Program-made: the position numbers and the translations under genes
Shown: positions 12,520 through 61,607 of the stretch, piece by piece
Position numbering within the stretch: position 1 is the first letter of the stretch
Layout: each line of letters begins with the position of its first letter
DNA from: Azoarcus sp. CIB
GTDB taxonomy: Bacteria > Pseudomonadota > Gammaproteobacteria > Burkholderiales > Rhodocyclaceae
Length of the DNA stretch: 64,000 bases
Assembly (NCBI RefSeq): GCF_001190925.1
Contig: NZ_CP011072.1
Span: forward strand, 3,162,001-3,226,000
Reading direction: 5' to 3'
The notes under the pieces: model-generated
What the model saw: the letters and a program-made list of their open reading frames with translations, nothing else
Databases searched by the model: none
What the model was told of the DNA's origin: nothing

Positions 12520-12581
12520 CTTTCAGTCTCCTTCGTGTGGGGCGCCGGTTCATGCCGGCGCCGGGTTCGTCGTGGTTCGGA

Positions 12582-17405: not shown

Positions 17406-17415
17406 TGATTGCTCC

Positions 17416-18684: not shown

Positions 18685-18691
18685 GCTCGCC

Positions 18692-19945: not shown

Positions 19946-20241
19946 TGGGTTTCCCCCACCATGGTGATCGCCCGCTGCGGGCACTCGTTGGCGCAGATGC
20001 CACAGCCCTTGCAGGTCTTGAGGTTGAAGTCGAACCACGCGGCGTGCTCCTCGACGCACTGCACCGGGCAGTACAGCCAGCACACCGCGCACTTCACGCA
20101 TTTGTCGCGGTTCACCACCGGCCGCATGTTGCGCCAGTCGCCCGGCAGCATAGGGCTGACGACGGTGGCGACCGGACAGAGGTCGTCGGGGACCCCGGCC
20201 TGTTCGAGGTTGAAGAGTGGATAACTGTGGTGCCGGCTCAT
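19942..20241 (-). CDS. padF: Phenylglyoxylate:acceptor oxidoreductase, ferredoxin delta subunit
   Basis: 99 residues with two [4Fe-4S] motifs: CVKCAVCWLYCPVQC and CKGCGICANECP. It is the small ferredoxin-like subunit of the POR-type complex. It overlaps both neighbours by 4 bases (padE upstream, padG downstream), so translation is coupled. Confidence 0.93.
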   Translation of the reverse strand: MSRHHSYPLFNLEQAGVPDDLCPVATVVSPMLPGDWRNMRPVVNRDKCVKCAVCWLYCPVQCVEEHAAWFDFNLKTCKGCGICANECPQRAITMVGETQ

Positions 20242-20810: not shown

Positions 20811-20881
20811 CTTGTCTCCTCCTGCGTTGCAGGGTGCGGGGCTCGTCGACCCCGCGTTGTCATTTGTGCCGCGAACTTCAC

Positions 20882-20975
20882 GTAGGACGGGAGAAGCGAA
20901 GCGCATCCCGCCAATCGACCGTTCCCGACTCGACCACCATTCGGCGGGATCCGCCTTCGGCTCCTCCCGCCCTAC
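20882..20975. repeat. REPIN-like palindromic repeat (copy 1)
   Basis: A 94-base imperfect inverted repeat between padD and padE. The left arm starts GTAGGACGGGAG and runs to CATCCCGCC; the right arm starts GGCGGGATCC and ends CTCCCGCCCTAC. A related element lies at 41296-41387. Two REP-like units in head-to-head order with a short spacer are the hallmark of REPINs. It may also stabilise or attenuate the pad transcript. Confidence 0.7.
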
Positions 20976-20983
20976 CTTCGTGC

Positions 20984-21892
20984 CTACGCTCCCCCCCAAC
21001 CGGGTTTCACCGCCGGACCGGCCGGGCCGCGACCGCGCACCGGCAGGTGCGGAATCGCGAAACCCTGCGTGAAGGCGGCGCGGCGCACCAGCGTGTACTT
21101 GAACCACCAGCCTCCGGCGACCGCGACCAGACCGGCAAGGATCAAGGCCGGACTCGCCAGCGGCGCACCGACCACGCCGACCAGCAGCAGGACGGCCGGC
21201 AGCACGTTGCCGTACTTCAGGAACGGCCCGTCGATTGCGGACAGCGCGCGCAGGCTGCCTTCCGGGGCGCCGCCGCTGCGCAGGCTATGCAGGTAGTTGC
21301 GCCACAGCAGCACACGGGCGAGGAGCAGCACCAGCACGCCCGTCGCCACCGCGATCTGCCCGGCGACCTGCGGAATCACGAAGGGCGCCGCGACCGCCAG
21401 CAGGCTCGCGCCTTCGGCAAACCCGGTCGCCGCCACGAGCGGCATGCAGCGCGGGTGGCGCCAGGCGGGGATGCCCTTGTCTGCCGCGAGGATGCGCGCC
21501 TGCGCATAGACGAAGCACGCACCGAAGATGCCGGTGAGCAGGACGAACAGGCTTTGCCCCGTCGCCAGCGCCAGCACGCCGGAGCCGAACACGAAGGGTG
21601 CCACGGCCGCCTCGCGCGTCATCCACGAGGTTGCGAGGTGCCGATACACGTTGAGCGCACGCCACGGCTTGCCGATCTCGAACCACACGCAGGTGAGCCC
21701 GATGCCGATCAGCGCCATGCCGGCGACGAGCAGTGCGCGCACGTCCGTGCCCCACAGGCTGGCAACGGCCGCAAAGGCGAGGAGCCCGCCACCCGTGCCG
21801 CCAGCGATGAAGTTCGACGCCGCGCGCCAGTCCCAGTTGTGCTGCTGGTGGGGCGAGAAGCGGTCGCCGGATCGGATTTTCGCGGCTTTCAT
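20984..21892 (-). CDS. padD: Phenylacetyl-CoA:acceptor oxidoreductase, membrane anchor subunit
   Basis: 302 residues, strongly hydrophobic with about eight membrane helices, of the DmsC/NrfD type. A short N-terminus (MKAAKIRSGDRFSPHQQHNW) precedes the first helix (FIAGGTGGGLLAFAAVA). It anchors the Mo enzyme and passes electrons to quinone. The ATG at 21892 overlaps the padC stop (ATGA). The C-terminus is Gly/Arg/Pro-rich. Confidence 0.9.
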   Translation of the reverse strand: MKAAKIRSGDRFSPHQQHNWDWRAASNFIAGGTGGGLLAFAAVASLWGTDVRALLVAGMALIGIGLTCVWFEIGKPWRALNVYRHLATSWMTREAAVAPFVFGSGVLALATGQSLFVLLTGIFGACFVYAQARILAADKGIPAWRHPRCMPLVAATGFAEGASLLAVAAPFVIPQVAGQIAVATGVLVLLLARVLLWRNYLHSLRSGGAPEGSLRALSAIDGPFLKYGNVLPAVLLLVGVVGAPLASPALILAGLVAVAGGWWFKYTLVRRAAFTQGFAIPHLPVRGRGPAGPAVKPGWGGA

Positions 21893-22536
21893 TTTTTGTC
21901 CCAGATGTAATACACGCCCGGCCCGGTGCCGAGTTCCTCGTGCATGCGGAAGTGCTGCGTCTCGGCGATCAGGCGGCTGACCTTGCTTTCCGGGTCGTCG
22001 AGGTCGCCGAAGACCATCGCGCCGGAGATGCAGGAATTGACGCAGGCGGGCGTCACGTCCGGATCGCGCCCCGGCACCTGACCGGTCTTCGCCGCGAGGT
22101 CGATGCGGTCGATGCAGAAGGTGCATTTCATCGACACGCCGATGCGCGCCGGGTCGAAGCGCACTTCCTCGGACTTGATCGGCTTGTCGCCATAGGCGAA
22201 CGTCGCCTCATGCACGATCGAGCGCGCTTCGTAGGGACAGGCCATCACGCAGTTCGCACAACCGATACAGGTGTCGTAGTCGATGGCGACGAGGCCGTCG
22301 GGGCGCTTGGTCGTGGCCTTGGTCGGGCACACCTCCTCGCATGGTGGCTCGTCGCAGTGCATGCACGACACCGGCACAAAGCTGCGGCGCACGTCCGGGA
22401 ATTCGCCCGTCTCGAGGTCCAGCACGCGGCGCCACTGCACGCCCGGCGGGGTCGCGTTGGCGTTCTTGCACGCGGCGGTACAGGTCTGGCAGCCCACGCA
22501 GCGGCGCAGGTCGATGGCCATCACGTAGCGGGTCAT
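21889..22536 (-). CDS. padC: Phenylacetyl-CoA:acceptor oxidoreductase, Fe-S subunit
   Basis: 215 residues with four cysteine clusters of the DmsB/NrfC type: CVGCQTCTAACKNAN, CMHCDEPPCEEVCP, CIGCANCVMACP and CTFCIDRI..PACVNSC. It relays electrons from PadB to the membrane subunit. It has 4-base overlaps with both padB and padD. Confidence 0.92.
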   Translation of the reverse strand: MTRYVMAIDLRRCVGCQTCTAACKNANATPPGVQWRRVLDLETGEFPDVRRSFVPVSCMHCDEPPCEEVCPTKATTKRPDGLVAIDYDTCIGCANCVMACPYEARSIVHEATFAYGDKPIKSEEVRFDPARIGVSMKCTFCIDRIDLAAKTGQVPGRDPDVTPACVNSCISGAMVFGDLDDPESKVSRLIAETQHFRMHEELGTGPGVYYIWDKK

Positions 22537-25289: not shown

Positions 25290-25309
25290 GTCTCCCCCGT
25301 TTTGATTTT

Positions 25310-26128
25310 TTAGTGAACCCGCTCGGGGTGGGAATAGACGCTGTGGCGCTCGCCACGCGCAAAGCCGATCAGGGTCAGGCCGGCGGCCTGCGCGACGCGC
25401 ACCGCCATGCCGGTCGGCGCTGAAACCGCCGCCACCACCGCGATGCCGACCGCCGCCGACTTCTGCACGATCTCGTAGCTCGCGCGGCTGGTCATGAACA
25501 GGAAACCGTCGTTGAAGGAACGCTGCTGCGCCGCGATGGCGCCGATGAGCTTATCGAGCGCGTTGTGCCGGCCGACGTCCTCGCGCACGAACTCGACACG
25601 ACCGTCGAACCCGCACCATGCGGCGGCATGCACGGCGCCCGTAAGGTCGAACAGGTGCTGGCGCGACTGGAGCTCGGCCTGGGCGCGCTGCAAGGCGCCC
25701 GCATCGAGCATTCCCGTGGCGCCGACCTTGGTGATCGGGCGACAGGCAAGCTGATCGAGGCTTTCGACGCCGCAGATGCCGCAACCTGTGCGCCCCGTCA
25801 TGGCACGACGGCGTGCCCGTAGCTGAGCGAAGCGCTCGCCCGCCAGCTGCATCTGCACTTCAGTCCCGTGCGCGTGCTCGACGACCTCGATGTCGAGGAT
25901 CTCGCGGACGTTGCCGGCGATGCCCTCGCTCAGACTGAAACCGACGGCGAAGTCCTCGAGGTCCTGCGGCGTGGCCATCATCACTGCGTGCGAGAACCCG
26001 TTGTACACCAGTGCGACCGGCACTTCCTCGGCCACGCTGTCCTCGGCGCGGACCGCAGCGCCGTCGGTCCACCGGTCCACGTCGTACATCCCGTGAGCAT
26101 CCGCCATCGAAACCGCATCGTGCCGCAT
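25310..26128 (-). CDS. fdhD: FdhD-type sulfurtransferase for Mo-bisMGD enzymes
   Basis: 272 residues. The family block GRTGCGICGVESL contains the two cysteines of the sulfurtransferase site, and REDVGRHNALDKLIGA and TSRASYEIVQKSA follow. FdhD transfers sulfur from IscS to the Mo-bisMGD cofactor before insertion into formate dehydrogenase. Here it is the first gene of the pad operon with no formate dehydrogenase nearby, so PadB is its likely client (inference). Confidence 0.9.
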   Translation of the reverse strand: MRHDAVSMADAHGMYDVDRWTDGAAVRAEDSVAEEVPVALVYNGFSHAVMMATPQDLEDFAVGFSLSEGIAGNVREILDIEVVEHAHGTEVQMQLAGERFAQLRARRRAMTGRTGCGICGVESLDQLACRPITKVGATGMLDAGALQRAQAELQSRQHLFDLTGAVHAAAWCGFDGRVEFVREDVGRHNALDKLIGAIAAQQRSFNDGFLFMTSRASYEIVQKSAAVGIAVVAAVSAPTGMAVRVAQAAGLTLIGFARGERHSVYSHPERVH

Positions 26129-34247: not shown

Positions 34248-35370
<1,123 letters not shown>

Positions 35371-35372
35371 GC

Positions 35373-37100
35373 TCAGCTCCACTGGGTGATGTGTTCGACG
35401 ATGGCGCCGGGGCGAACCGCCAGCGGGCCGGGGTGATGCAGTGCCTTCACCTGGCGCGGCAGGTCGTACTGCGCGCGCAGGTAGCGGTGGAACTGCCCGC
35501 TGTGCGATTGCTCGACGACGAGCACGCGTTCGACACCCTTTAGTGCGTTCGCGAATTTCTCGGGCTGCACCGGGGAGATGAGGCGCACGGCGATGAGTTT
35601 TACGCGCTGGCCGGCGGCGCGCAGGCGCTCGAGCGCTTCGCGCGCGGGGCCGGCGCTCGACCCCCAGGTGAGGATCGCGGTGTCGGCGTCTTCGTCGCCG
35701 GTGATGTCGGCCCAGTGGTCGCCGTAGTTATAGCCCGTGAGTTTGCGCAGGCGCTTGTCGAGCTGCGCCTGGTGGTCGGAGGCTTGCGACGAGGGGGTGC
35801 CGGTTTCGTTGTGTTCGAGGCCGTCGGCGGTGTAGGTGTAGCCGGCCATGCCGGGGATGGCCATCGGCGAGACTCCCGAGGCGGTGTTGGCGTAGCGTTT
35901 GTAGTGCACGCCGGCTTCGAGGGCGGCGGGTTTCTCGCGCTGGCCGATGAAGCTGACCGCGGCCGAGCGCGGCATCACCGCGCGCGCCTGGCCCATCGCC
36001 TGGTCGGTGAGCACGATCGCGGCGGTCTGCAGGCTTTCGGCGAGATGCACGGCCCACTGCGTGGTGAACAGGCAGTCGGCGACCGAGGTGGGGGCGAGCA
36101 CGAGGTGCGGGGCGTCGCCGTGCAGGCCGTACACGGCGATGTTGAGGTCGGCCTGTTCGGATTTCGTGGCGATGCCGGTCGAGGGGCCGACGCGCATGAC
36201 GTCGATGACGACGATGGGCACTTCGGCGGCCACCGCGAGGCCGAGCGATTCGGTCATGAGGGCCAAGCCCGGGCCGGAGGTGGCGGTGAGCGAGGGCACG
36301 CCGCCGTAGGAGCCGCCGATGATCTGGTTGATGGAGGCGAGTTCGTCCTCGGCCTGCACGAGCACGCCGCCGACCTTGGGTAGCGCCGGCGCGAGCCATT
36401 CGAGCACTTCGGTCGCCGGGGTGATCGGGTAGGCGGCGACGAAGCGCACGCCGCCACGCAGCGCGCCCATGCCGGTGGCTTCGTTGCCGGTGATGCTCCA
36501 GCGCTCGCTGGTGGCCGGCGTGCCGGCGGGGAGCCTGGGTACCGCGGGGAAGTCGGCGGCGGCTTCGACGCCGGCGCGGAAGGCGGCGATGCTGGCGGCG
36601 ATCGCCTCCTCGCCCTTGCGCTTCAGGGTGTCGCGCAGCACACCGAGGACGACGTCTTCGGTGAGGCCGATCATGCCCGCGATGGCGCCGAAGGCGACCA
36701 TGTTGGGGCGCCCGTCGGGGACTGTCTTGGCCAGCGCCTTCATCGGCAGCGCGATCTGCTGCGCGCCGCTGCGCACGAATACTTCGGGGGTCTCGCCTTC
36801 GCCCGGATCGCCGATGATCAGGCTCTCGGCCCCTAGCGGGATCTCGGCAGCAAAGCGGCCGACGTTCTGCCAGTCGACGCCGACCAGCAGGTGGAAGCGG
36901 TCGTCATGCGAGGCGATCGGCTCGGTGCCGAGCCGGATCATTACCGCCGCTTCGCCGCCGCGGATCTGCGGGCCCGACGAGCGCGTCATGTACGCGTACC
37001 AGCCGGCGCGTGCCGCCGCCTCCAGCAGCAGGCTGCCCGCGGTCACCACCCCCGCCCCGCCGCTGCCTGCCATCACCAGTGAAACCGTCTGTCCGCCCAT
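35373..37100 (-). CDS. korA: 2-oxoacid:ferredoxin oxidoreductase, fused gamma-alpha subunit
   Basis: 575 residues. Residues 1 to about 190 are the gamma domain (MAGSGGAGVVTAGSLLLEAA, SSGPQIRGGEAAVMIRL). The remainder is the alpha domain with ITGNEATGMGALRGGVRFVA and YPITPATEVLEWLAP, then SGPGLALMTESLGLAV. The fused gamma-alpha layout is that of KorA. It is the first gene of korA-korB-fdx and divergent from a MarR gene across 172 bases. Confidence 0.9.
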   Translation of the reverse strand: MGGQTVSLVMAGSGGAGVVTAGSLLLEAAARAGWYAYMTRSSGPQIRGGEAAVMIRLGTEPIASHDDRFHLLVGVDWQNVGRFAAEIPLGAESLIIGDPGEGETPEVFVRSGAQQIALPMKALAKTVPDGRPNMVAFGAIAGMIGLTEDVVLGVLRDTLKRKGEEAIAASIAAFRAGVEAAADFPAVPRLPAGTPATSERWSITGNEATGMGALRGGVRFVAAYPITPATEVLEWLAPALPKVGGVLVQAEDELASINQIIGGSYGGVPSLTATSGPGLALMTESLGLAVAAEVPIVVIDVMRVGPSTGIATKSEQADLNIAVYGLHGDAPHLVLAPTSVADCLFTTQWAVHLAESLQTAAIVLTDQAMGQARAVMPRSAAVSFIGQREKPAALEAGVHYKRYANTASGVSPMAIPGMAGYTYTADGLEHNETGTPSSQASDHQAQLDKRLRKLTGYNYGDHWADITGDEDADTAILTWGSSAGPAREALERLRAAGQRVKLIAVRLISPVQPEKFANALKGVERVLVVEQSHSGQFHRYLRAQYDLPRQVKALHHPGPLAVRPGAIVEHITQWS

Positions 37101-37213
37101 CCGACCCTCCGTCTGCGACGACTGGAACTGGCGCGTAGACCACGCGCCCCGATGAGCAAACTTTACCGATCGCATTGTTTCCTGTCAAATTGTTTGTCTT
37201 CCACTATTTTTAT

Positions 37214-45439: not shown

Positions 45440-46435
45440 TCACCCCGTCAAGTCGAGCGGACTCCGCACACCGCGCCCTCCCCGGTTCAAGACGTGGGTG
45501 TAAATCATCGTCGTCGACACATCCGCATGTCCGAGCAACTCCTGCACCGTGCGGATGTCATAGCCGGCCTCGAGCACGTGAGTGGCAAAGGAGTGCCGCA
45601 GCGTGTGCGGACTCACCGGTTTCACGATCCCGGCACGCGCGGCAGCCGCCCTCACCGCCCGTTGCACCCGCTTCTCATCGACGTGATGACGCCGCACCGC
45701 CCCCGAGCGCGGATCCACCGACAGCCCCGCCGCCGGAAACACGTATTGCCACCCCAACGAAGTCGCAGCCGACGGATATTTCGTCGCCAAGGCATGCGGC
45801 AACCAGACATCCCCCCGGCCCGCCAGCAATTCCGCCGCATGAAGCGCACGCACCACAGAAACCTGCACGCGCAAGCGCTCGGTCAGGCTCCCCGGCAACA
45901 TCGTCACGCGATCCTTGTCGCCCTTCCCCTCCCGCACCACGATCTCGCCGCGCCCGAAGTCGACGTCCTTCACCCGCAAGCGCAGCCCTTCGAGCAAACG
46001 CATGCCCGTCCCGTACAACAGCGAGACGATCAACCCCAGCAAAGGGTCATCCACCGCCGCAATCAATCGCTGCACTTCCTCGCGCGACATCACCGAAGGC
46101 AAGCGCGCCGGCCGCTTCGCCCGCGTCACCTCATCCAGCCACGGCAAGGGCTGCTCCAGCACCTCCCGGTAAAGGAACAGGATCGCTGACAAAGCCTGCC
46201 CCTGCGTCGCCGCACTCACGTCGCGCTCCACTGCGAGAGAGGTCAAAAATGCCTCAACCTCCCGCTTTCCCATGTCCTTTGGATGGCGCCGACCGTGATG
46301 AATGATGTATCTTTTGATCCAACCAACATACGCCTGCTCCGTACGCAGGCTGTAGTGCTTGAGGCGCAGCCGATCCCGAACAAGATCGAGCAAGCGCGGC
46401 GCAGTCGAACCGACAGAAGAAAGGCCTTGATCCAT
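45440..46435 (-). CDS. intI: Integron integrase
   Basis: 331 residues, tyrosine recombinase of the IntI family. The active-site set is complete: Arg in [34 protein letters not shown] with His-x-x-Arg, [16 protein letters not shown] with His and the nucleophile Tyr. The IntI-specific extra segment is visible ([20 protein letters not shown]), as is the C-terminal [13 protein letters not shown]. It is full length with no stop or frameshift. It is divergent from the cassette array, the standard integron layout, with a LexA-like box before its start. Confidence 0.95.
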
Positions 46436-46451
46436 GTTATCGGACAGTATG

Positions 46452-46467
46452 CTGTATGGATATACAC
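46452..46467. promoter_or_regulatory. LexA-like box upstream of intI
   Basis: CTGT-ATGGATAT-ACAC matches the CTGT-N8-ACAG SOS box with one mismatch, 17 bases before the intI ATG. LexA control of integrase is known for many integrons, including class 1 and Vibrio. Confidence 0.6.
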
Positions 46468-46561
46468 ATGATACCTGCTAGACCAATGACTTGCCAGCCG
46501 TTGCCGGTTTATCCGCCATGTCCAATAACACTTTTACGCCGACACTTGGTGTCGACCATAC

Positions 46562-46568
46562 GTTAGGC
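46562..46568 (+). other. attI core (GTTAGGC)
   Basis: The core GTTAGGC sits at the start of the first cassette, six bases before its ATG and 127 bases from the intI start. The recombination point would be between G and TT. Only the core is identifiable; flanking attI sites differ between integrons. Confidence 0.7.
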
Positions 46569-46573
46569 ATTTT

Positions 46574-47164
46574 ATGAGCGACACTGCTGACCAGTGGGAG
46601 CGGTTTCTAGACCCGGATGTGGTTAGGCCATCTCTCTTTTTGGCGACGATGTTTATCACTACGTTTGAGATCCTTAAGGACTCTGTTGTGGACGACATTC
46701 GTGGTTACTACACGAACGGGTTTGATGAGAATGGACCGACTGTCGAGCCCGAGTACCGATCCAAGGTCTTATCCAAAAATAAGAGCCCGCTCTATGCATC
46801 TCTTCAATGGCTGCGCGAGAACGACGCTATAGATAACGAAGACTTGGCAACCTTCGAGCAGCTTAAGAAAACACGCAATCTACTCGCTCACCAGCTCTTC
46901 GCCGTCGTTACGGGGCAGGTCGAGTCTGCCCACGAGGCTCAGTTCGATGCTCTTGTAGCGCTACTACGCAAGATCGGCGTGTGGTGGGTCGTCAATGTCG
47001 AGATTCCGACCAATCCAGGCTTCGATGGGCAGGAAATTGATGAAGAAGGCATTGTTCCCGGTGCAGTCCTGTCACTGCAAATGCTTATCCAAGTGGCGTC
47101 AGGAAACACCGAGCTGCTCGAACAGTGGCGCAAGGAGCGTGTCAAAGGGCGAGAAAATGCCTAA
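46574..47164 (+). CDS. Gene cassette 1: HEPN-like protein
   Basis: 196 residues, predominantly helical. The motif RNLLAH at residues 101-106 fits the R-x4-H (RNxxxH) signature of HEPN ribonucleases. HEPN proteins include toxins and anti-phage nucleases, but this pattern alone is short. The C-terminal region (ELLEQWRKERVKGREN) is charged. It is AT-richer than the chromosome, as is typical for cassettes. The stop codon lies inside the attC core. Function is not known. Confidence 0.65.
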   Translation: MSDTADQWERFLDPDVVRPSLFLATMFITTFEILKDSVVDDIRGYYTNGFDENGPTVEPEYRSKVLSKNKSPLYASLQWLRENDAIDNEDLATFEQLKKTRNLLAHQLFAVVTGQVESAHEAQFDALVALLRKIGVWWVVNVEIPTNPGFDGQEIDEEGIVPGAVLSLQMLIQVASGNTELLEQWRKERVKGRENA

Positions 47165-47228
47165 CCCCTCATTCCACCGGACCTTGCGCATAAAGCCGCG
47201 CAAGGTCCGGTGAATTCAAACGTTGAGG
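47159..47228 (+). repeat. attC site 1
   Basis: Inverse core GCCTAAC (47159-47165) and core GTTGAGG (47222-47228) enclose a perfect 15-base stem CACCGGACCTTGCGC / GCGCAAGGTCCGGTG with an eight-base loop. The stop codon TAA of cassette 1 is within the inverse core. Confidence 0.85.
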
Positions 47229-48990
47229 CTGTAGAAAAACCCCGGCCGCGGCGCACACGCCAATGCCTCCGGTATAATTCGGCGACGCCTCCCGGAGTTC
47301 CGCGATGCCCCGCTTCAAGACGCCCGACTATGGTCTCAAGATGATCCCGGTGGACTTCGACCGGCAGGTGATTGCGGGGAGCTTAGAGCACGCACTCTGT
47401 CATCTGGTCGACCACGAGATCGATCTTTCGGGGCTACACGCGCGCTGCCGCAATGACACGACGGGCGCGCCGGCGTTCTCACCGGCCGTGCTGCTCAAAA
47501 TCGTGCTGCTCGGATACTCGCGCGGGTTGGTGAGTTCGCGTGCGATCGCTACGGCCTGCCGCGACAACGTGCTGTTCATGGCGGTTTCGGGCGACAGCGC
47601 ACCGCACTTCACGACGATCGCCGGCTTCGTCGCCGAACTCGGTGACGAAGCGGCCCGGATCTTTGCCCGGGTGCTGATGATTTGCGATCGGCAAGGATTG
47701 ATCGGACGCGAACTCTTTGCCATCGATGGGGTGAAGCTTCCGGCCAACGCGAGCAAGGCCAGAAGCGGTACCCGTGCAGACTTCATGCGCGAGGCCGACA
47801 AGATGGAGACGGCGGTCAAGCGCATCATGGTCAGCCACGCCACGGCCGACATGAACGGCGAAGACGCCGAGGCCGCACGCGCGGCGCATACTGTGGAACG
47901 ACTCAAGGCCGAAGCGGCGAAGATCCGCGCCAGGCTGGACGCGCATCCCGACGAGCGGCGCAGCGCCAAAGGCAAACCGCGGCTGAGCAATCGCACCGAC
48001 AATGAGTCGGCCAAGATGGCTACCGGCAAAGGCGTGATCCAGGGCTACACCGGGGTGGCCGCGGTCGATGCGAAGAGCCAGATCGTCGTCGACGCCCAGG
48101 CGCACGGCACGGGCTCCGAGCAGGAACAGCTCCTGCCGGTGGTCGAGGCGACTGCGCCGTTCCGCACGCCCGACACGACGATCTGTGCCGACGCGGGCTA
48201 CCATTTGGAAGCGAACCTCAAGGCGCTGGCCGACGCCGGCATCGACGCCTACGTCTGCGACAACGAATACCGCAGCCGAGACGCCCGATATGCCGGGCAG
48301 GCGAGTCACAGCCCGATCCGCTGTGGGACAAACGGAAGGCGGACAAGAAGACGCGCTGCTTCCGGCCTGCCGATTTCACGCTGGCCGACGACGGCTCGCA
48401 CTGCGTCTGCCCGGCCGGCAAGAAGCTGTACTCGAACGGCTCGAACTGCACCTTTAACGGCTATGCGGCGATGAAGTTTCGCGGCGCCGAGCGCGACTGC
48501 GTGCCGTGCGTGCTGCGCGACCAGTGCCTGCGCACCCCCGACAAGACCAAGACGCGCCAGGTCGCCTTCTTCCAGGGCAAGCGCGCCAGTGAAGAGAGCC
48601 ACACCGAGCGGATGAAACGGCGGATCGACACCGACACCGGCAAGCGCATGATCACCGCGCGCTTTGCCACCGTCGAGCCGGTCTTCGGCAATCTGAGAAA
48701 CAACAAGCGGCTCCATCGCTTCACATTGCGCGGCCGATGCAAGGTCGACGGGCAGTGGAAGCTCTACTGCCTGGTGCACAACATCGAGAAGCTGGCGCAC
48801 CACGGGTATGCACAATGAGCGGGGCACGCCACGGCAGCACGCCGCTACGCATACGGGAGCACCGGGCGCGAACGACGGAAACCGAACGCATGACGGACTC
48901 AGGCTGATCCGGACCGCAAAATGACGAACAAGACATCGTCGGCTATCGCCGACACCGATCGCTTGCCCGGAAATCGGGTTTTCCTACACC
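47227..48990 (+). mobile_element. IS1182-type insertion sequence inside the integron array
   Basis: The element starts GGCTGTAGAAAAACCCC at the edge of attC 1 and ends with an imperfect inverted copy, GGGTTTTCCTACACC, at 48976-48990. It carries one transposase gene with a frame disruption. No target-site duplication is clear. Its GC content is that of the chromosome, unlike the cassettes. The trailing 170 bases after the transposase hold only a small GTCGGC/GCCGAC hairpin. Confidence 0.7.
47305..48818 (+). pseudogene. IS1182-family transposase, frameshifted
   Basis: The first frame (47305 to about 48320) encodes the DUF772-type N-terminus (FSPAVLLKIVLLGYSRGLVSSR) and the DDE part (GYTGVAAVDAKSQIVVDAQ, TTICADAGYH). 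The product continues, one frame back, from about 48310 to 48818 (PLWDKRKADKKTRCFRP, a Cys-rich stretch, then RMKRRIDTDTGKRMITARFATVEPVFGN). A -1 shift near 48300-48320 joins them. It is either an inactivating indel or a programmed frameshift. The second part includes the final Glu region of the DDE fold. Confidence 0.8.
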
Positions 48991-52259: not shown

Positions 52260-53623
<1,364 letters not shown>

Positions 53624-53627
<4 letters not shown>

Positions 53628-55777
53628 TGCATGCTTGCCTCGGCGCCGCCGTCGGAGCCCGCCTCGTCGGCGGGCAGATGGATGCGGAACCACGCGCCGC
53701 CCTCGGGGCGGTTGCCGCATTCGATGCGCCCGCCCAGTTCGGACATGATCCCGTAGCAGATCGACAGGCCCAGCCCGGTGCCGCGCCCGGGCGCCTTGGT
53801 GGTGAAGAAGGGATCGAAGACGTGGTCGATGACGCCCGACGCGAGGCCGGGGCCCTCGTCGAGCACGTCGAGCTCCACCGCGCCGCCCGCCGGGTGCAGC
53901 ACGACGACGACCCGGCCCCGGCCGTCCATCGCGTCGCGGGCGTTCTTCACGAGGTTGCGCAACACCTGGTCGAGCAGCGTGGGGTTCGTCGCGACCGCCG
54001 GCAGCGGCCCTTCCGTGCGCAGTTCGACGTCGAGCCCGCGGGTCAGGCCGAGCTCGCGGTACGAATCGAGGCGCTCGCGCACGAGCATCGCGACGTCGAC
54101 GACTTCCAGCGGGACTGCCTGCTTGCGCGAGAACAGCAGCAGGTTGTCGGTGATCGCCTTGCAACGCTGCGCCTGTTCCTGGATGGTGGTGAGCCCCTGG
54201 CGCAGCACGTCGAAGTCGGGATTCGACTGCGCCCCGGGGATCGACTCCATCAGCGCCTGCAGTTCCTCGGCAAAGCCGGAGACGAGGCCGAGCGGGTTGT
54301 TGATCTCGTGCGCGATGCCCGACGCGAACTGCCCGAGCGCGCTGAGCCGGTTGGCCTGCGCGAGCTGGCGCTCCATCTCGCGCCGTGCCGTGATGTCGCG
54401 TGCGACGCCGATCACGCCTTCGGGGCGCCCGTCGGTGGACAGCACAGCGGAGCTGACCTCCAGCAGGCGGTTCGGCGCACCGCCCGGCGCGACCATGATC
54501 TCGAACGGCGGTCCGCCCTCCCCCGCCAGGCGCCGGCGGAAGTCGCGCTCGACGCGCAGCGCCGACGAATGCAGCATCAGCTCGCCGCAGCTGCGCCCGA
54601 TGGCGCGATCCGCGGGCACGCCCAGCAGTTCGGCCATGCGTGCGTTGACGAAGCTGAAGCGCCCGTCGAGATCGAGGACATATACGGCGTCGTTGATGAT
54701 GTCCTGGATCTGCTGCTCGCGGTTTTCCAGGCGCGCGGCGTACTCGGTGAGCTTGCGCTCGCGCTCCTGCTGCGCGGTGATGTCGATGGCGAGCCCGCTG
54801 TAGCCGACAATCTTGTCGTCCTTGAACACCGGTTCGACCTGCAGGCGCATCGGCACCGGCCGCCCCGCGGCATCGCGCATCACGACGTCGAGCCGCGTGG
54901 CCGCCCGCGCGTTGGCGATGCTCTTGAGGAAGTTGGACGCCGCGACGTGGTATTCGGGCAGCACGAGGTCGCGCAGGCGCATGTTCGGCAGCTGTTCCGG
55001 GGTGATGCCCAGCCGCGTGCGCCCGGCCTTGTTGAGCTGCAGCATGCGGCCCGAGACGTGCAGCGCGAACACCATCTCGGGTAGGTCCTCGATCAGGTTG
55101 CGGTAGCGCTGTTCCGACGCTTCGAGCTCGCGCGTGCGCTCGTACACCTTGCCTTCGAGGACGTTGATGCGGTCCTTGATGTTGAGGGGCTGGAAGTACT
55201 TGCGCAGGCCTTCGAATTCCGGCGCGCAGTCCGCGGCGTTCATCAGCGTCCACGAACAGTGCTCGTCGCCGCGCCCCTCGCATTCGTGCTCGACGCAGAT
55301 CATGTCGGTCTGGAACACGTAGGACGCGAAGCCCGACGCATAGCCGGCGAGCGTCCAGCACACCGCCTCGTCGGAGCGCCCGAACAGGCGCAGGTGCTGC
55401 TCGGCCTCGTAGGAGCGGCGCCAGTGGCCGCTCATGCGGTAATGCCCGCGCTTGTGGTCGACCTCGACCGCCTGGGTCTCGACTTCGGCGATGCCCGAGA
55501 ACATATGCACCCGCGGCCCGCCGCGGACGAACTCCTCCAGCGTGTCGGGGTGCATGAAGCCGGGCAGCAGGCCGGCGTCCTCGAAGCCGCAACTGAAACC
55601 GTAGCGCGTCAGGATCACCTTCGCGATGTCGGCGCCGAGCGTCTCGACCAGCTCCTTGCGCAGCGCGCCCATCGCGTCGGTGTGCAGCAGGATCGCGCGC
55701 CGGCCGCTGAACTGTATCGCCCCGCTGTCGGGCGAAAACTCCACCAGGGAGTAGAAATCCAGCTGATCGGCGCGCAT
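53624..55777 (-). CDS. Sensor histidine kinase with XylR_N and V4R domains (PcrS-like)
   Basis: 717 residues. Residues 1 to about 105 form an XylR_N effector domain (DAMGALRKELVETLGADIAKVILTRYGF). A V4R domain with a Cys/His-rich end follows (CVEHECEGRGDEHCSW). Next come PAS domains, a HisKA box (SALGQFASGIAHEINNPLGLV), and an HATPase (LVKNARDAMDGRG, GTGLGLSICYGIMSELGGR). No membrane helix is seen, so it senses a cytoplasmic aromatic. The XylR_N-V4R start is the effector unit of sigma54 regulators such as DmpR, here joined to a kinase. Confidence 0.88.
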
Positions 55778-55890: not shown

Positions 55891-57282
55891 TCAGTGCGCG
55901 CCCTGCACTTGCTGCTTGAGATAAGGCGCTCCTTCGGCTTGTGCCTCGCCTTGCTCGGGAGCCGTTTCCGGATGGAAGAACTGCTTGAGGATCAGCGCCG
56001 TCATGGCCAGCAGGCCGGGGATGGCGACCACCATGAACACCTCGCTGATGCCGAGTTTCCGGCGTGCGAGTTCCGCCACCAGGAAGGACCCGGCAATCCC
56101 GCCGAATCGGCCGATGCCGAGCATCCACGCCACCCCTGTGGCGCGCCCCTGCGTCGGGTAGAACGTGGCCGCGAGCGCCGGCATCGACACTTGCGCGGCG
56201 TTCATCATCGTCCCGGCGAGGAACACCACGACCACCAGCGCGCCGACGTTGCCGACCACCTGCCCGATCGAATACACGGAGACCGCGGTGAGTGCGTACG
56301 CGATGGCGACGATGCGGTTGCCGTTGAAGCGGTCCATCAGCCAGCCGACGAACACCGCCGCGCAACCGCCGAGTGGGAACAGCGCGGAGATCAGCGTGGC
56401 CGTCTTGGGATCGAGACCGGCCTCCTTGAACAGGATGGGCATCCAGTTGATCAGCGCATAGAAGATCACCAGCCCCATGAAATAGGCGAGCCACAGCATC
56501 ACCGACCCGACCACGCGGGAGCGCGACAGCACCACGCCCAGCCCGCTCTTGCCGTCGGCGACGGCGACCGTCTCGGTGAGGCAGAACGAGCGGGCACCGG
56601 CTGCAGCGGCAGAGATGCGGCCAAGCACGGCACGGATCCGATCCGTCGACACGCCCTTTGCCACCATGTAGCGAACCGACTCCGGCAACCAGATCAGCAT
56701 CACCGCAACCAGCACGATGGGAGCGATCCCGCCGAGCACCAGCACGCTGCGCCAGCCGAATTGCGGGATCATCCACGCCGCCAGGAAACCGCCCAGTGCC
56801 GCGCCGAGCGGGAAACCGGAGAACATCGCCGTGGTGATCAACGCGCGACGTTTCGTCGGGGAATATTCGCTGATCAGCGTCACCGCGTTGGGCATCGCCG
56901 CCCCCAGGCCGAGCCCGGTAAGAAAACGCAGGACCGTGAGGCTCTGCAGATCGGCGGCGAACGCCGACACCAGGCTCGCGACCGCGAACACCAGCACCGC
57001 CACGTTCAGCACCAGCCTGCGCCCCACACGGTCCGCCAGCGGGCCCGACACCAGCGCCCCGCCCGCAAGCCCGAACAGCGCCGCGCTCAGCACCGGCGCG
57101 AGGTCCGGCTTGGTGACGCCCCATTCCTGGATGAGCGAGGGCGCAATGTAGCCGATCGCCGCGGTGTCGAACCCATCCAGCAGCACGATCAGGAAACACA
57201 GGACGAAGATGAGCCACTGGAAGCCGGAAAAGGCCTGGTGGTCTATGAAGGACTGAACATCGACGGCGTCTTTACTGGACAC
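55891..57282 (-). CDS. MFS transporter, aromatic acid:H+ symporter (AAHS) family
   Basis: 463 residues, 12 membrane helices. The family mark LDGFDTAAIGYIAPSLIQEWG is in helix 1, with GPLADRVGRRLVLNVAVLVF in loop 2-3. AAHS proteins import aromatic acids such as 4-hydroxybenzoate and benzoate. The GTG at 57282 is chosen for GAGGAGA upstream. Its stop is 113 bases before the kinase gene, so kinase and regulator may share its transcript. Confidence 0.88.
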   Translation of the reverse strand: MSSKDAVDVQSFIDHQAFSGFQWLIFVLCFLIVLLDGFDTAAIGYIAPSLIQEWGVTKPDLAPVLSAALFGLAGGALVSGPLADRVGRRLVLNVAVLVFAVASLVSAFAADLQSLTVLRFLTGLGLGAAMPNAVTLISEYSPTKRRALITTAMFSGFPLGAALGGFLAAWMIPQFGWRSVLVLGGIAPIVLVAVMLIWLPESVRYMVAKGVSTDRIRAVLGRISAAAAGARSFCLTETVAVADGKSGLGVVLSRSRVVGSVMLWLAYFMGLVIFYALINWMPILFKEAGLDPKTATLISALFPLGGCAAVFVGWLMDRFNGNRIVAIAYALTAVSVYSIGQVVGNVGALVVVVFLAGTMMNAAQVSMPALAATFYPTQGRATGVAWMLGIGRFGGIAGSFLVAELARRKLGISEVFMVVAIPGLLAMTALILKQFFHPETAPEQGEAQAEGAPYLKQQVQGAH

Positions 57283-57393: not shown

Positions 57394-58884
57394 TCAGGCA
57401 GCGGCCGCCGCGTGGCGCTCGTGCAGCGAACGCAGCCGGCCGCGCTGCAGCTTGCCGGTCGGCGTCAGCGGCAGCGCATCGAGCCAATGGACCCAGCGCG
57501 GGCGCCGGTGGCCCGGCAATGCGGCGATGCCTTCCTCCAGCCGCTGGCGTGCCACGGTCCAGCTGCCAGGCGCCGCGACGACGAGCACCGCCAGCGCCGT
57601 CAGGCCGTCGGCCGAATCGACGCCGACCGCCGCGATCTGATGCAGGGCCTCGCCGCAATGCGCCGCCAGCGCCTGCTCGACCCACAGCGTGCTGACCCAC
57701 TGACCGGCAATCTTCAGCATGTCGTCGTTGCGGCCCGCGTATTCCAGGGAACCGTCAGCGTGGCGCAGGAACATGTCGCCGGGCGAGAACCAGCCGTTGT
57801 CGAAATCGACCTGCGCGTCGGGCCGCTTCCAGTAACCGACCGCGACCGTGGTGTGACGCACCCAGATCCGCTGCGGCAGCTCCGCATCGACGTCCGGATT
57901 GAAGCGCACCTCGGTCAGCGGCGTCGGGCGCATCACGCCCGAGTCGTCGTCGCTGTAGAGCATCAGGCACAGCGTCTCGGAGGTGCCATAGCCGCTGATG
58001 AGCCCGCAGCCGGTCTGCTCGCGCCAGCCTTGGCGTATCGCGAGCGGCAGCGCCTCGCCGGCCGACACGAAATGGCGGATGCCGCGATCGGCCAGCCGCG
58101 CCGCGACGCCGGTCTGCAGCATCTTGTTGTACAGCGTCGGCACGCTGAAGAGCAGCGTCGGACGATGCTTCGCGACCATCTCCTCGACGCGCTCGGCCGT
58201 CGGCCATTCGCGGTCCAGGATCACCGTCGCCCCCGCGCGCAGCCCGGCGAACAGGCTGTTGCCGAGCGCATAGGCGAAGAACAGCTTGGACGTTGCATAC
58301 AGCCGGTCCGCGGACGTCAGACCGGCGAGATTACAGGCGAAGGAATGCGCATTGACGACGACGCGCTGAACATGGATCACGCCCTTGGGCGTGCCCGTGG
58401 TGCCGGAGGTGCCGATCCACAGGGCCGGCGCCTCGGCATCGAGTTGCAGGGGTTCGATCCCTTCCGCACGTGCGAGCGCCTGCGCCCAGTCACGGTCCGC
58501 AACGCCGCCGCCGACCACCGCGGGAGCCCCGGGAAGCGTCGCGACCAGCCCTTGCAGGTCCGCTGCCTGCTCCGGCTCGCACCATACGAAGCGCGCCTCG
58601 CATTCCTTCAGGATCGGCGTCAGCTCGGCCATCGACAGCCGCGGATTGACGCCGATGACCACGCCGCCGGCCCAGATCGCGCCGAGATAAGCCTCGGCCC
58701 AGTCGTCGCTGTCGGGCGCGAACACGACCACGCGCTCGCCCGGTGCCAGTCCCAGCGCCTGCCACGCGCCCGCCGCGCGACGCACGCGCTCCCGCAGTTC
58801 CGCATAGCTCACGCGCCGCTCGTCGCATTCGATGGCTGTCGCGGCATCCGCGCCAGCCGACAGCAGGATCTCAGCAGCATTCAT
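57394..58884 (-). CDS. Benzoate-CoA ligase-type AMP-forming ligase
   Basis: 496 residues, ANL superfamily. It has IGTSGTTGTPKGVIHVQR, the benzoate-CoA-ligase-like AYALGNSLFAGLRAGATV and SAGEALP, then GYGTSETLCLMLYSD and YAGRNDDMLKIAGQWV. It activates an aromatic acid to its CoA thioester. Benzoate or 4-hydroxybenzoate is the expected substrate given the transporter and the p-cresol genes. It starts at 58884 with few bases before it that resemble a ribosome site (GAGAAGTGCGA). It is divergent from AOR. Confidence 0.85.
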   Translation of the reverse strand: MNAAEILLSAGADAATAIECDERRVSYAELRERVRRAAGAWQALGLAPGERVVVFAPDSDDWAEAYLGAIWAGGVVIGVNPRLSMAELTPILKECEARFVWCEPEQAADLQGLVATLPGAPAVVGGGVADRDWAQALARAEGIEPLQLDAEAPALWIGTSGTTGTPKGVIHVQRVVVNAHSFACNLAGLTSADRLYATSKLFFAYALGNSLFAGLRAGATVILDREWPTAERVEEMVAKHRPTLLFSVPTLYNKMLQTGVAARLADRGIRHFVSAGEALPLAIRQGWREQTGCGLISGYGTSETLCLMLYSDDDSGVMRPTPLTEVRFNPDVDAELPQRIWVRHTTVAVGYWKRPDAQVDFDNGWFSPGDMFLRHADGSLEYAGRNDDMLKIAGQWVSTLWVEQALAAHCGEALHQIAAVGVDSADGLTALAVLVVAAPGSWTVARQRLEEGIAALPGHRRPRWVHWLDALPLTPTGKLQRGRLRSLHERHAAAAA

Positions 58885-59282
58885 TCGCACTTCTCCACAT
58901 TGAGGCGGATTTCCCCGAGAGAAACCCGTGTAGCCGTCCGGTGAATCGGGGTGCGCCGAAGGGCGACCGAATCGTTCCGCACAATAGGCCCGGGCGATGA
59001 CCGGAACAATACGCGGCAACGCCTTTCTGCATCGCATTTGATGGAAGTCAAATTATTTCGCGGTTCACGAAAACTCCGCAGGCGACGATTTTCCGCCACC
59101 ACCGGCGCCGCATCCCCCGCCGTTCCTGACAGTGGCGGCAAATCCACTGACGCAGCCGCAAATCCCGCCCCGATCATCGCGCGCATCCCGCGCCCTTGCA
59201 TAACCCCACCCGCTTTTTTGTTTGACTTCAAACTGTTTTATTGCAACACTACATCCAACCATCAGGACAACAGGAGACGGCA
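58885..59282. other. 398-base divergent gap between the ligase and AOR
   Basis: No gene is recognised here. Before the AOR ATG stand GTTTGA-CT-TCAAAC (59220-59233), a T-rich patch, and the AOR leader with GGAGACGG. No FNR box or sigma54 promoter of consensus form is seen. The middle part is GC-rich and without clear structure. Confidence 0.6.
59220..59233. promoter_or_regulatory. GTTTGA-CT-TCAAAC inverted repeat upstream of AOR
   Basis: Same 6-base arms as in the pchC leader (45177-45190); it ends 49 bases before the AOR ATG. It may be an operator. Confidence 0.4.
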
Positions 59283-61607
59283 ATGGGGATCAGGGACAAG
59301 GTCGAACAACTGTGCGCACGCATGCACGACACGCCGCAATACGATACGCAGGGTGCCGTGCTGTTCGTCGACCTCGAGAAGCGCGAAACGCAGCGCAAGT
59401 ACCTGCCGCTCGACGTGCTGCGCACCTACCTCGGCGGACGCGGCGCTAATATGTACCTGCTCTACAACCTGCTGCAGGACGGACGCGAAGCGCTCGACCC
59501 CGAAGTCCCCCTGATCTTCGGCGCCGGCACCCTCACCGGCGACATGCCGGCCGCCACCCGCGGCAACTTCACCAGCCGCTCGCCCGAGAGCGACGCGATC
59601 CTCGACACCAACGGCGGCGACTACTTCCCCTCCTTCGTCAAGCGCCACGGCTACGACCACATCGTGCTGTACGGCCTGGCGCCGCAATGGACGCTGCTGC
59701 GCATCGCGCATGAAGAAGTGCAGTTCATCGACGCGACGCCCTACGTCGGTCTCGACAACCTCGACCTGCCCGGTGCGATCGAGCGCGACTTCGAATGCAC
59801 CGAACGCAAGGACATGGCGCTCGCCCGCATCACCACCGCCGGGGAGAACCTCGCGCTGTGCAGCGGCATCATGGGCGGCATCAAGGCGATCTGGGCGCGC
59901 GGCGGCGGCGGCGCGAAGATGGGTTCGCTGCACCTGAAGGCCATCATGGTGCACGGCAAGCCCGACGATGCGCCGAAGGTGGCCGAACTCAAGGCGCACA
60001 ACAAGGTGATCGGCAAGAAGATCACCTCGACCTCGGTGATCAAGAACGCGCTCAAGCAGGTCGGCACGCCCTTCCTGTACAAGCCCTCGCGCGTGCTCGG
60101 CGCACTCGGCACGCTGAACAACCAGAAGACGGACTGGTATCCGACGCTGGACGCCGACAACTTCGACCCCTACCGCCCCGGCATGGACGGGTGCTTCAAG
60201 TGCCCGGTGCATTGCCGCAACCTCAACGACATGACCCCCGAAGGCAAGGGTGGCTGGGGCTCGGCCGCGCTCAAGGGCCTGAAGGGCAACGCCAGCTATG
60301 ACAAGGCCCAGGCCGACGTCGAACACGGCAAGCAGCGCACCTACAACGGCATCCACAACGACGGCAAGTTCGACCAGTACGACAAGGGCGACGGCCCCGA
60401 ATACGTCACCGTCGGCAAGTTCGGTCCGATGATCGGCCTGAAGGAGCCGGAGCACATCCTGCGCCTCAACAACATCCTCAACGACCTCGGCCTCGACTCG
60501 GCTTCGACCGGCAGCGCGATCTCGTGGGCGATGGAGCTGTGGCAGCGCGGCATCATCAACGCGAGCCACACTGGCGGGCTGGACCTGTCGTGGGGCAACT
60601 ACGAGACGGTCGAGAAGCTGCTGTTCATGACGGCGAAACGCGAAGGCTTCGGCGATACCATCGCCGACTCCGCACGCGCCGTCGAGCGCGGCAAGTATCC
60701 GCCCGAAGCCTTGGACTACCGCATGGCGGTGAAGGGCCTGTTCCAGTCCGACCCGCACGACGCCCGCATCCTCAAGGCCTTCGCGCTGGGCCTGTCGGTC
60801 GCCACGCGCGGCATGGACCACCTGCGCAACCGCGTCACGCTCGAGATCAACGCCCGCATCAACGACGACGCCGCGTTCAAGACCGAGCTCTACGGCGGCA
60901 CCGTCGCGGCCGAACCAAACCGCTACGAAGGCAAGGAATTCGCCGTACGCCGCTGCGAGAACACCTTCGCCGTCGGCGACTCAGTGGGCATGTGTCGCTT
61001 CAACACCAAGCTGTTCAACTCGCCGACGACGCCGGACTGCGGCGACTTCGCCACCCAGCTTTCGACCGCGACCGCGCACGAATTCACCGGCGAGCAGCTG
61101 AACGAGATCGGCCGCAACATCACCGGCCTGGAGCGCATGATCAACTTCCGCCTCGGCCTGCGCGGCAAGGATGACACCCTGCCGAAACGCTGGTTCGAGG
61201 AACAGATCGAGGTCGGCCCCTTCAAGGGCGAGAAGGTCGACCGCAAGGAGTTCGAAGCGATGAAGGCGCGCTTCTACGAAGTCACCGGCCTCAACGCCGA
61301 AGGCGTGCCCAAGGCCGACTGGCACGAACAGCTCGCCGGCGCCACCACCGGCTTCGCCGTGCGCGTCGAACTGCCGCACCCGCTGCCCGGTGCGCCGGAA
61401 AAGGCGATCGTCATCGACGAACCCGTCGCCAACGTCGTCGCGCTGCGCGACGCCCTGGCCCGCCGCCTGCCCGAAGCCCGCGAGGCGCTCAACGACCACT
61501 CGTGGAACGTCGCGGTCAACGGCCACATGGTCCTGGCGGGCGAGCGCGAGACCGCCCTGCACCACGGCGACCGCGTGGCCTTCGTGCCGATCATCGCCGG
61601 GGGCTGA
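59283..61607 (+). CDS. Aldehyde:ferredoxin oxidoreductase fused to a MoaD/ThiS-like domain
   Basis: 774 residues. Residues 1 to about 685 are an AOR-family protein (tungsten- or molybdenum-pterin): GGRGANMYLLYNLLQDG near residue 50, GAGTLTGDMPAATRGNFTSRSPES, the [4Fe-4S] cysteines C304, C307, C311 (CFKCPVHC) and C571 (VGMCRFN). The spacing C311-C571 is wider than in Pyrococcus AOR because of a Gly/Lys/Asp-rich insert at about residues 320-375. Residues about 693-774 form a MoaD/ThiS-like beta-grasp domain ending AFVPIIAGG, the Gly-Gly tail used for thiocarboxylation. No separate AorA or AorC partner gene is in the window. The aldehyde substrate is unknown. Confidence 0.85.
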   Translation: MGIRDKVEQLCARMHDTPQYDTQGAVLFVDLEKRETQRKYLPLDVLRTYLGGRGANMYLLYNLLQDGREALDPEVPLIFGAGTLTGDMPAATRGNFTSRSPESDAILDTNGGDYFPSFVKRHGYDHIVLYGLAPQWTLLRIAHEEVQFIDATPYVGLDNLDLPGAIERDFECTERKDMALARITTAGENLALCSGIMGGIKAIWARGGGGAKMGSLHLKAIMVHGKPDDAPKVAELKAHNKVIGKKITSTSVIKNALKQVGTPFLYKPSRVLGALGTLNNQKTDWYPTLDADNFDPYRPGMDGCFKCPVHCRNLNDMTPEGKGGWGSAALKGLKGNASYDKAQADVEHGKQRTYNGIHNDGKFDQYDKGDGPEYVTVGKFGPMIGLKEPEHILRLNNILNDLGLDSASTGSAISWAMELWQRGIINASHTGGLDLSWGNYETVEKLLFMTAKREGFGDTIADSARAVERGKYPPEALDYRMAVKGLFQSDPHDARILKAFALGLSVATRGMDHLRNRVTLEINARINDDAAFKTELYGGTVAAEPNRYEGKEFAVRRCENTFAVGDSVGMCRFNTKLFNSPTTPDCGDFATQLSTATAHEFTGEQLNEIGRNITGLERMINFRLGLRGKDDTLPKRWFEEQIEVGPFKGEKVDRKEFEAMKARFYEVTGLNAEGVPKADWHEQLAGATTGFAVRVELPHPLPGAPEKAIVIDEPVANVVALRDALARRLPEAREALNDHSWNVAVNGHMVLAGERETALHHGDRVAFVPIIAGG

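Follow-up and report, generated by a model that had tools for sequence, protein, structure and literature searches.

Within a 64,000-nucleotide stretch of the Azoarcus sp. CIB genome (contig NZ_CP011072.1, positions 3,162,001 to 3,226,000; hereafter the window), a gene at positions 59283..61607 encodes a 774-residue fusion protein of the WOR family, to which the aldehyde oxidoreductases (AORs) belong. With both AFOR domains and the four Cys residues of a [4Fe-4S] cluster, the protein is a member of the WOR/AOR family, and sequence comparisons confirm that a ThiS/MoaD-type carrier is joined to its catalytic subunit. The evidence presented below points, with a probability that we put at roughly 60%, to a one-polypeptide, probably ferredoxin-linked bis-molybdopterin oxidoreductase of aromatic-acid catabolism, most likely containing tungsten, in which the ThiS/MoaD-like carrier known elsewhere as WorX or AorD would be permanently fused to the enzyme.

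Domain architecture and the Gly-Gly tail

The checked reading frame runs from an ATG at 59283 to a stop at 61607, and its Met1 is kept in 27/27 aligned proteins. All three Pfam matches of the protein (AFOR_N, AFOR_C and ThiS) exceed the curated cut-offs. The gene and its parts are as follows:

59283..61607, + strand: WOR/AOR-family large subunit with C-terminal ThiS/MoaD-like domain, 774 residues (open reading frame, Pfam, orthologues)
59355..59957, + strand: AFOR_N, residues 25-225 (Pfam PF02730, E 3.8e-44)
60003..61334, + strand: AFOR_C, residues 241-684 (Pfam PF01314, E 1.4e-88)
60234..60386, + strand: insertion of ~46 residues relative to PfAOR, inside residues 318-368 (alignment to 1aor)
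61353..61604, + strand: putative ThiS/MoaD-like sulfur-carrier domain, residues 691-774 (Pfam PF02597, hhalign)
61599..61604, + strand: C-terminal Gly773-Gly774 (conserved in 53/53 complete fusion proteins)

The AFOR_N domain of AOR comprises two beta-grasp units that bind the metallopterin (PMC1949818). In the fusion protein, the cluster ligands Cys 304, 307, 311 and 571 are invariant in 27/27 aligned proteins, and the CxxCxxxC motif is present in 54/54. The original prediction, which described an AOR-family enzyme with its own MoaD/ThiS-like domain, put the excess length over ordinary AORs at ~170 residues; this holds as a total, but only ~85 of the extra residues form the C-terminal domain, and alignment to PfAOR assigns others to an N-terminal extension (~18) and the ~46-residue insertion. 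The insertion (318-368), missing from PfAOR, is strongly conserved throughout the fusion clade.

Pfam places the ThiS domain at residues 710-774 (PF02597, E 7.1e-9). When a profile of 17 fusion C-terminal domains (84 residues) was compared by hhalign with a profile of seven MoaD/AorD/WorX-type proteins, the match reached 97.6% (E 2.9e-12, 57 columns), against 0.3% for a ferredoxin profile used as a negative control. These results uphold the central claim of the original prediction. NCBIfam MoaD/ThiS/SAMP models also match the C-terminal region, with E values of 1.8e-5 to 0.02, all under their cut-offs (TIGR01682, 24.2 bits with a cut-off of 66.15; TIGR01687, 25.1 bits with a cut-off of 49.5). 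Because the NCBIfam MoaD models score under cut-off, the domain is classified from its sequence as ThiS/MoaD-like rather than as MoaD proper. A profile search of the PDB with the C-terminal domain returned eight matches, all weak and mostly to ThiS/MoaD-type proteins, the best at E 0.015 (3dwg, listed as cfp10A and also known as CysO); the others were SAMP2, a ThiS/MoaD-family protein, PF1061, phage tail protein I, two molybdopterin converting factors and one ribosomal protein. The domain thus probably adopts the beta-grasp carrier fold. In BLAST comparisons, it was about equally weakly similar to MoaD of its own genome, E. coli MoaD and AorD, and more weakly still to the WorX of locus L037 (labels beginning with L denote loci and those with G genomes); the carrier may plausibly stem from a neighbouring worX gene in a close relative.

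In MoaD and ThiS, the Gly-Gly tail is the part activated by E1 enzymes. Homologues were checked for tails without this ending among 54 distinct, de-duplicated fusion proteins, one of which has lost its C-terminus at a contig end; Gly-Gly forms the very end of the other 53, which agrees with the original prediction. All 53 close with the motif P-x-x-(A/G)-G-G, its Pro being the sixth residue counted back from the C-terminus. All four Gly codons were seen at both terminal positions (63 rows, in which some genes appear twice under different locus ids), and in 10 orthologue pairs the ratio of non-synonymous to synonymous substitution (dN/dS) was 0.07-0.38 for the ThiS region and 0.05-0.16 for the WOR region. 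Together, the conserved ending, the varied glycine codons and the low ratios show that the carrier domain and its free Gly-Gly are under purifying selection, weaker than that on the enzyme part. That the C-terminal region might instead be a chance extension or a gene-prediction artefact that happens to end in Gly-Gly has a negligible probability: this reading is refuted by the Pfam ThiS match over cut-off, by the profile match with its negative control and by the recurrence of the same layout in 53 distinct complete proteins.

Proteolytic release, another proposal of the original prediction, would have the domain cut off as a free MoaD-like protein. It has a precedent in a mycobacterial MoaD-MoaE fusion, where cleavage liberates the tail of MoaD. 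In the present protein, the Gly-Gly is already free at the C-terminus, so activation needs no release. Moreover, only a few conserved residues link the end of AFOR_C (684) to the first strand of the carrier (~691), with T689, G690 and F691 invariant in 27/27 aligned proteins; this short, conserved junction, which has no loose linker, argues against a cleavage site. Release is therefore considered highly improbable, and the claim is not sustained.

Separate carriers, cofactor machinery and a proposed working

The host genome, a single contig of 5.26 Mb, encodes two AFOR_C proteins: the fusion protein and an ordinary AorB in an aorABCDE operon. This operon encodes a separate carrier, AorD, of 87 residues ending in PPIAGG. 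In Aromatoleum aromaticum, aorD and aorE have been described as MoaD-like (Arndt et al., 2019; PMC6365974), in agreement with the statement of the original prediction that Aromatoleum AOR operons have separate genes for small partners. A ThiS profile search of all open reading frames of at least 45 residues detected no second ThiS-like frame in any of 48 fusion loci (including one duplicate), whereas such a frame was present in 7/7 unfused WOR loci compared, of which three supplied training sequences for the profile and four did not. Because of this difference, the fused domain probably replaces the separate WorX. The genome retains a MoaD and three ThiS-ThiG pairs; therefore, the fused domain is not its sole carrier.

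Candidates for the activation of the tail are encoded elsewhere in the genome, where four ThiF-family matches were found, including one with 48% identity to E. coli MoeB. Among the 48 fusion loci, queries with E. coli MoeB, MoaE, MoeA and MoaA yielded a MoeB-like stretch (L084:16911-17282) and a MoaA-like gene (L088:12805-13779), and no further matches. As for the metal, a TupB-like permease is present in 24/26 fusion genomes; in five of these 24, it shares 39-40% identity with the query. The query, taken from the aor operon of Azoarcus sp. CIB, had tungstate TupB as its best equivalog match (E 7e-48, under cut-off) and matched no Pfam family at 1e-5. The permease bears on the metal indirectly, and the fusion enzyme would by its sequence hold a bis-molybdopterin tungsten/molybdenum cofactor.

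In the working proposed here, a MoeB/ThiF-type E1 would adenylate Gly774 and a sulfurtransferase would convert the adenylated residue to a thiocarboxylate, steps predicted from the sequence of the tail. The domain would then give dithiolene sulfur to the cofactor of its own enzyme, either with MoaE or directly on enzyme-held pterin, so that sulfur supply and apo-enzyme would be coupled. Electrons would pass to or from a dicluster ferredoxin that KorAB could reduce. We infer the activation of the tail, its use in cis, the electron partner and the metal. Cofactor sulfur donation in cis, which had been listed among the original possibilities, is favoured because the fusion loci lack a separate carrier (0/48).

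The same tail could serve for docking alone, with the MoaD-like face and Gly-Gly recruiting MoaE/MoeB/MoeA-type proteins to the apo-enzyme while the genomic MoaD performs the sulfur chemistry. A complete MoaD-MoaE-MoeA set together with MoeB in the genome, the scores under cut-off of the NCBIfam MoaD/ThiS models and the lower constraint on the ThiS part in 9/10 pairs would all suit this alternative. Nevertheless, it is judged unlikely: P-x-x-(A/G)-G-G is intact to the last residue in 53/53 proteins, a free Gly-Gly is not obviously needed for docking, and no separate carrier gene remains at the fusion locus.

Active site and metabolic context

Proposed AOR mechanisms rely on Thr243, Glu313, Tyr427 and His448, with Glu313 as the proton acceptor (PMC12096430). 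Alignments place T262, V375, H492 and H513 of the fusion protein at these four PfAOR positions, respectively. The Glu313 position is Val in 53/54 fusion proteins and Thr in the remaining one (1/54), and the Tyr427 position is His in 54/54; the Thr243 equivalent is kept in 27/27 and the His448 motif in 53/54. The aligned unfused WORs, of both the AorB type and the WorX-adjacent type, retain Glu313. The Tyr-to-His change is known in one characterised AOR (PMC12096430), and the second-shell residues of the fusion protein differ from the set that marks aldehyde-oxidising AOR sensu stricto. The loss of Glu313 casts doubt on aldehyde chemistry; judged from these residues, the label "aldehyde oxidoreductase" is unproven for the fusion protein and aldehyde oxidation is not assured.

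As a tentative alternative, the enzyme may instead draw electrons from ferredoxin to reduce an aryl-CoA or a similar compound, in functional analogy to the BamB class. BamB is a WOR with non-aldehyde chemistry (PMC13328260), both the Glu313 (V in 53, T in one of 54) and Tyr427 (His in 54/54) positions are changed, and genes for KorAB, ferredoxin, coenzyme A (CoA) ligases and benzoyl-CoA reductase (Bcr) adjoin the fusion gene in part of the loci. Eight BamB-like paralogues, one of which (L101) matches BamB 4z3w over its full length with 1154 bits, carry KC(Y/F)(S/G)K.TY where the fusion protein has GDGPEYVT; the Cys of this motif is presumably the tungsten ligand, given the Cys ligand described in PMC12096430. 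The BamB-type Cys motif is thus absent from the fusion protein at the aligned position, while the His448 and Thr243 equivalents are retained. In addition, the Tyr-to-His change is shared with a characterised AOR, and the Kor linkage is compatible with electron flow in either direction.

The fusion enzyme probably acts on an aromatic acid, aldehyde or aryl-CoA. Our best guess is a redox step of an aromatic aldehyde/acid or aryl-CoA that would draw on the low-potential ferredoxin pool of the benzoyl-CoA pathway. A bolder combination, which we regard as a long shot, would have the pterin completed on the enzyme by an E1-recharged cis carrier supplying dithiolene or metal-ligand sulfur, and would also make the enzyme a new WOR type without the catalytic Glu that exchanges low-potential electrons with the ferredoxin of KorAB and benzoyl-CoA reductase and acts on an aromatic acid or aryl-CoA, not an aldehyde.

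Linkage to such genes was assessed in 47 fusion loci, distinct as loci but not as genomes, since L018 and L023 come from one metagenome-assembled genome and L024 and L026 from another. KorA or KorB lies within 8 kb of the fusion gene in 21/47 loci, a dicluster ferredoxin homologue in 17/47 a PaaK or benzoate-type ligase in 19/47 and a TRAP transporter subunit in 8/47. The ferredoxin and Kor counts, together with the dicluster ferredoxin and KorBA of the window, make ferredoxin the likely electron partner. The original prediction had noted that no AorA or AorC is nearby. This stands in so far as no AorA-AorC pair lies beside the fusion gene, but the same window does hold a ferredoxin (34248-34514) and KorBA. 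A tblastn search with AorA and AorC of Azoarcus sp. CIB gave matches in only 3/48 fusion loci: in the window, they are phenylacetate-pathway genes more than 35 kb from the fusion gene; in L055, they are 25-29% identical and at least 4.3 kb away, with a PadG-like gene nearby; and L091 has one AorA match (33%) at ~7 kb. AorA/AorC partners flanking the fusion gene are thus rejected for these loci.

Class I benzoyl-CoA reductase genes occur within the fusion clusters of three genomes (G363, BcrA, B and D; G242, parts of A and D; G414, A, B and C), and Had, Oah and Dch in those of G414 and G481; one representative of each Bcr/Had/Oah/Dch gene scored over its NCBIfam cut-off. In the class sample, BcrB is present in 9/9 fusion genomes and in 11/369 genomes overall (Fisher p 1.7e-16, or 5.8e-15 without the Azoarcus sp. 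CIB genome, uncorrected for relatedness). In the family sample, benzoyl-CoA reductase was detected in 5/18 fusion genomes (6 with a weak match in G078), as compared with 10 or 11/150 (p 0.0025 or 0.0004). That the fusion always accompanies benzoyl-CoA reductase is ruled out at the family level by these 5 or 6 of 18.

In the window itself, the genes next to the fusion gene and the candidate electron-transfer genes are:

57394..59037, - strand: predicted aryl-CoA ligase, benzoate/3-hydroxybenzoate-CoA ligase-like, divergent neighbour (NF053567, E 3e-108, and TIGR02262, both under cut-off; the called start may be early)
55891..57282, - strand: predicted aromatic-acid/H+ symporter of the major facilitator superfamily, PcaK-like (NF053517, E 2e-151, under cut-off, scanned as a longer open reading frame to 57354)
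53624..55777, - strand: predicted sensor kinase, with 7-219 like the V4R phenol regulator MobR and 350-707 a histidine kinase (under cut-offs)
52260..53660, - strand: predicted NtrC-type response regulator (sigma-54; under cut-offs)
35373..37175, - strand: korA, 2-oxoacid:acceptor oxidoreductase alpha subunit, fused gamma-alpha type (TIGR03710 over cut-off; called start probably too early; 62% identical to korA in L085)
34531..35382, - strand: korB, 2-oxoacid:ferredoxin oxidoreductase beta subunit (TIGR02177 over cut-off)
34248..34514, - strand: 2[4Fe-4S] dicluster ferredoxin, YfhL type, candidate electron partner (NCBIfam NF033683 over cut-off; true start probably the internal MALQIIDD, residue 25)

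A homologous aryl-CoA ligase adjoins the fusion gene in other Aromatoleum loci. Between korAB/ferredoxin and the fusion gene lie a phage-integrase-family gene and a DDE/DUF772 transposase (45440-48474, Pfam over cut-offs), which may have moved the two apart. Positions 14744-26128 on the - strand are occupied by the anaerobic phenylacetate pathway, including phenylacetate-CoA ligase, PadI, PadH and PadG at 14.7-20 kb, all over NCBIfam cut-offs. These genes are accompanied by those for a 918-residue protein of the dimethyl sulfoxide (DMSO) reductase family, an iron-sulfur protein and a membrane protein resembling DmsC, followed by FdhD (Pfam over cut-off); the first three presumably hold the PadB, PadC and PadD positions. 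The stretch 12112-14666 on the - strand encodes a thioesterase of the FlK type (Pfam over cut-off) and a protein resembling ADP-forming acyl-CoA synthetases (under cut-off), and homologues of both lie within 8 kb of the fusion gene in L041, L043 and L045. In 11 loci of cluster c2, of the Sulfuritalea type, a dodecin gene lies downstream of the fusion gene (L010:16901-17128; Pfam over cut-off for the L010 copy).

Several observations count against a ferredoxin-linked enzyme of aromatic-acid catabolism recharged by its own carrier. The conservation of Gly-Gly is compatible with pure docking too, and dN/dS of the ThiS region exceeds that of the WOR region in 9/10 pairs. The genome has its own MoaD beside MoaE and MoeA, plus MoeB, so a private carrier is not strictly required, and an E1-like stretch occurs in just 1/48 fusion loci. 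The permease of the fusion genomes is TupB-like only. In the window, fdx-korBA is 22-25 kb from the fusion gene rather than adjoining it; 14/47 loci, partly through contig ends, have none of the counted partner genes; and benzoyl-CoA reductase was not detected in 12 or 13 of the 18 family-sample fusion genomes.

Distribution, known systems and significance

As had been proposed, the same fusion was sought in other genomes. The closest named relatives are six Aromatoleum strains and one Azoarcus strain, at 93-99% identity. Counting Azoarcus sp. CIB itself, full-length fusions of at least 69% identity occur in 18/150 genomes of the family sample, and fusions occur in 9/369 genomes of the class sample, where the others are 62-72% identical and that of G360 ends at a contig edge before the carrier part. 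Among the 398 genomes of the phylum sample, Azoarcus sp. CIB was the sole match at E 1e-40 or better, a threshold that would miss remoter fusions. A plasmid collection gave 22 records at E up to 1e-20, all below 60% identity; among the matches listed (15 of 22), there was no fusion, the alignments stopping at residue 696 or before.

In a WOR tree of 36 rows from which the ThiS part had been removed, the 14 fusion rows were monophyletic with support of 100/100; their branch is very long, at 3.0 changes per column, and has no well-supported sister. The fusion gene is duplicated in tandem in 8/47 loci (L010, L011, L012, L015, L016, L021, L022 and L024), with 72-77% identity between the copies, and L017 has a partial second copy; most of the tandem pairs are separated by genes for a PaaK-like ligase and a MarR regulator. 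In G073, the fusion protein is the sole AFOR_C protein found. Several same-family genomes (G116, G119, G078, G006 and G017; L037-L039, L051, L053, L099-L105 and L107) encode multiple WOR paralogues, among them BamB-like proteins and a WOR whose ThiS-like open reading frame is separate; G116, G119 and G006 also have a strong BcrB match.

The AOR-MoaD architecture is not new, having been in print since 2006: row 3 of Table 1 in Iyer, Burroughs and Aravind (2006; PMC1779556) gives MoaD as fused carboxyl-terminally to an aldehyde ferredoxin oxidoreductase in Azoarcus. The architecture there is the same and the organism related, the wording being that MoaD "might be fused"; the relevant parts of that paper do not cover how the fusion is distributed, whether its tail is conserved, which genes surround it or what its active site looks like. 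New here are the Gly-Gly ending in 53/53 proteins, the lack of a second carrier in 48 loci, the gene linkage and the loss of Glu313 in 54/54. The portions of PMC6365974, PMC13328260, PMC12096430, PMC9765128, PMC1949818 and PMC13197769 that bear on these enzymes do not discuss the fusion; in the main text of PMC13328260, "MoaD" and "fusion" are absent and "fused" appears once, for ModBC. Among Creative Commons-licensed papers in PubMed Central, neither a functional study of the fusion nor a description of such a WOR enzyme in the benzoyl-CoA pathway was found.

Of the systems already described, AorABC with AorD/AorE of Aromatoleum aromaticum (PMC6365974) shares the WOR subunit, the AFOR_N and AFOR_C domains, the cluster Cys residues and a MoaD-like protein in the operon. 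It differs from the fusion in having a separate carrier, adjoining AorA and AorC genes and Glu313; identity between the two is ~27%, and the host genome has an AorABC operon too. Phenylacetaldehyde oxidation has been ascribed to AorABC and StyD (PMC9765128). In class I WORs of the 2026 classification (PMC13328260), WorL acts alone and passes electrons to ferredoxin; the ThiS-like WorX found near WorL in some cases, a separate gene unlike the carrier fused here, is predicted there to act in pterin biosynthesis, its exact function being called unknown. BamB of class II benzoyl-CoA reductase is likewise of the WOR family and serves the benzoyl-CoA pathway, whereas the fusion protein lacks the BamB Cys motif and is linked, where it is linked, to class I reductase genes. 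A ThiS-like domain ending in Gly-Gly is also joined or matched to an enzyme outside the thiamine and molybdenum cofactor pathways in CysO-type carriers and in the actinobacterial ThiS-sulfite reductase fusion (PMC1779556), although the enzyme is a different one.

How given ubiquitin-like carriers are paired with given tungsten enzymes is an open question (PMC11323500). In Thermococcus kodakarensis, the carriers differ in which tungsten enzyme they activate, the mechanism linking them to apo-enzymes is not known, and one suggestion is that sulfur may be added to molybdopterin once this is bound to the target (PMC11323500). By tying carrier and enzyme together, the fusion clade offers a natural test of how carriers find their enzyme, and mutation of the last two residues of a single polypeptide could reveal whether the enzyme depends on a dedicated carrier and whether that carrier acts in cis. 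The clade also represents a distinct type of WOR without the catalytic Glu of AOR. What ties it to class I benzoyl-CoA reductase is that the two co-occur in the class sample and that, in a few genomes, their genes are clustered.

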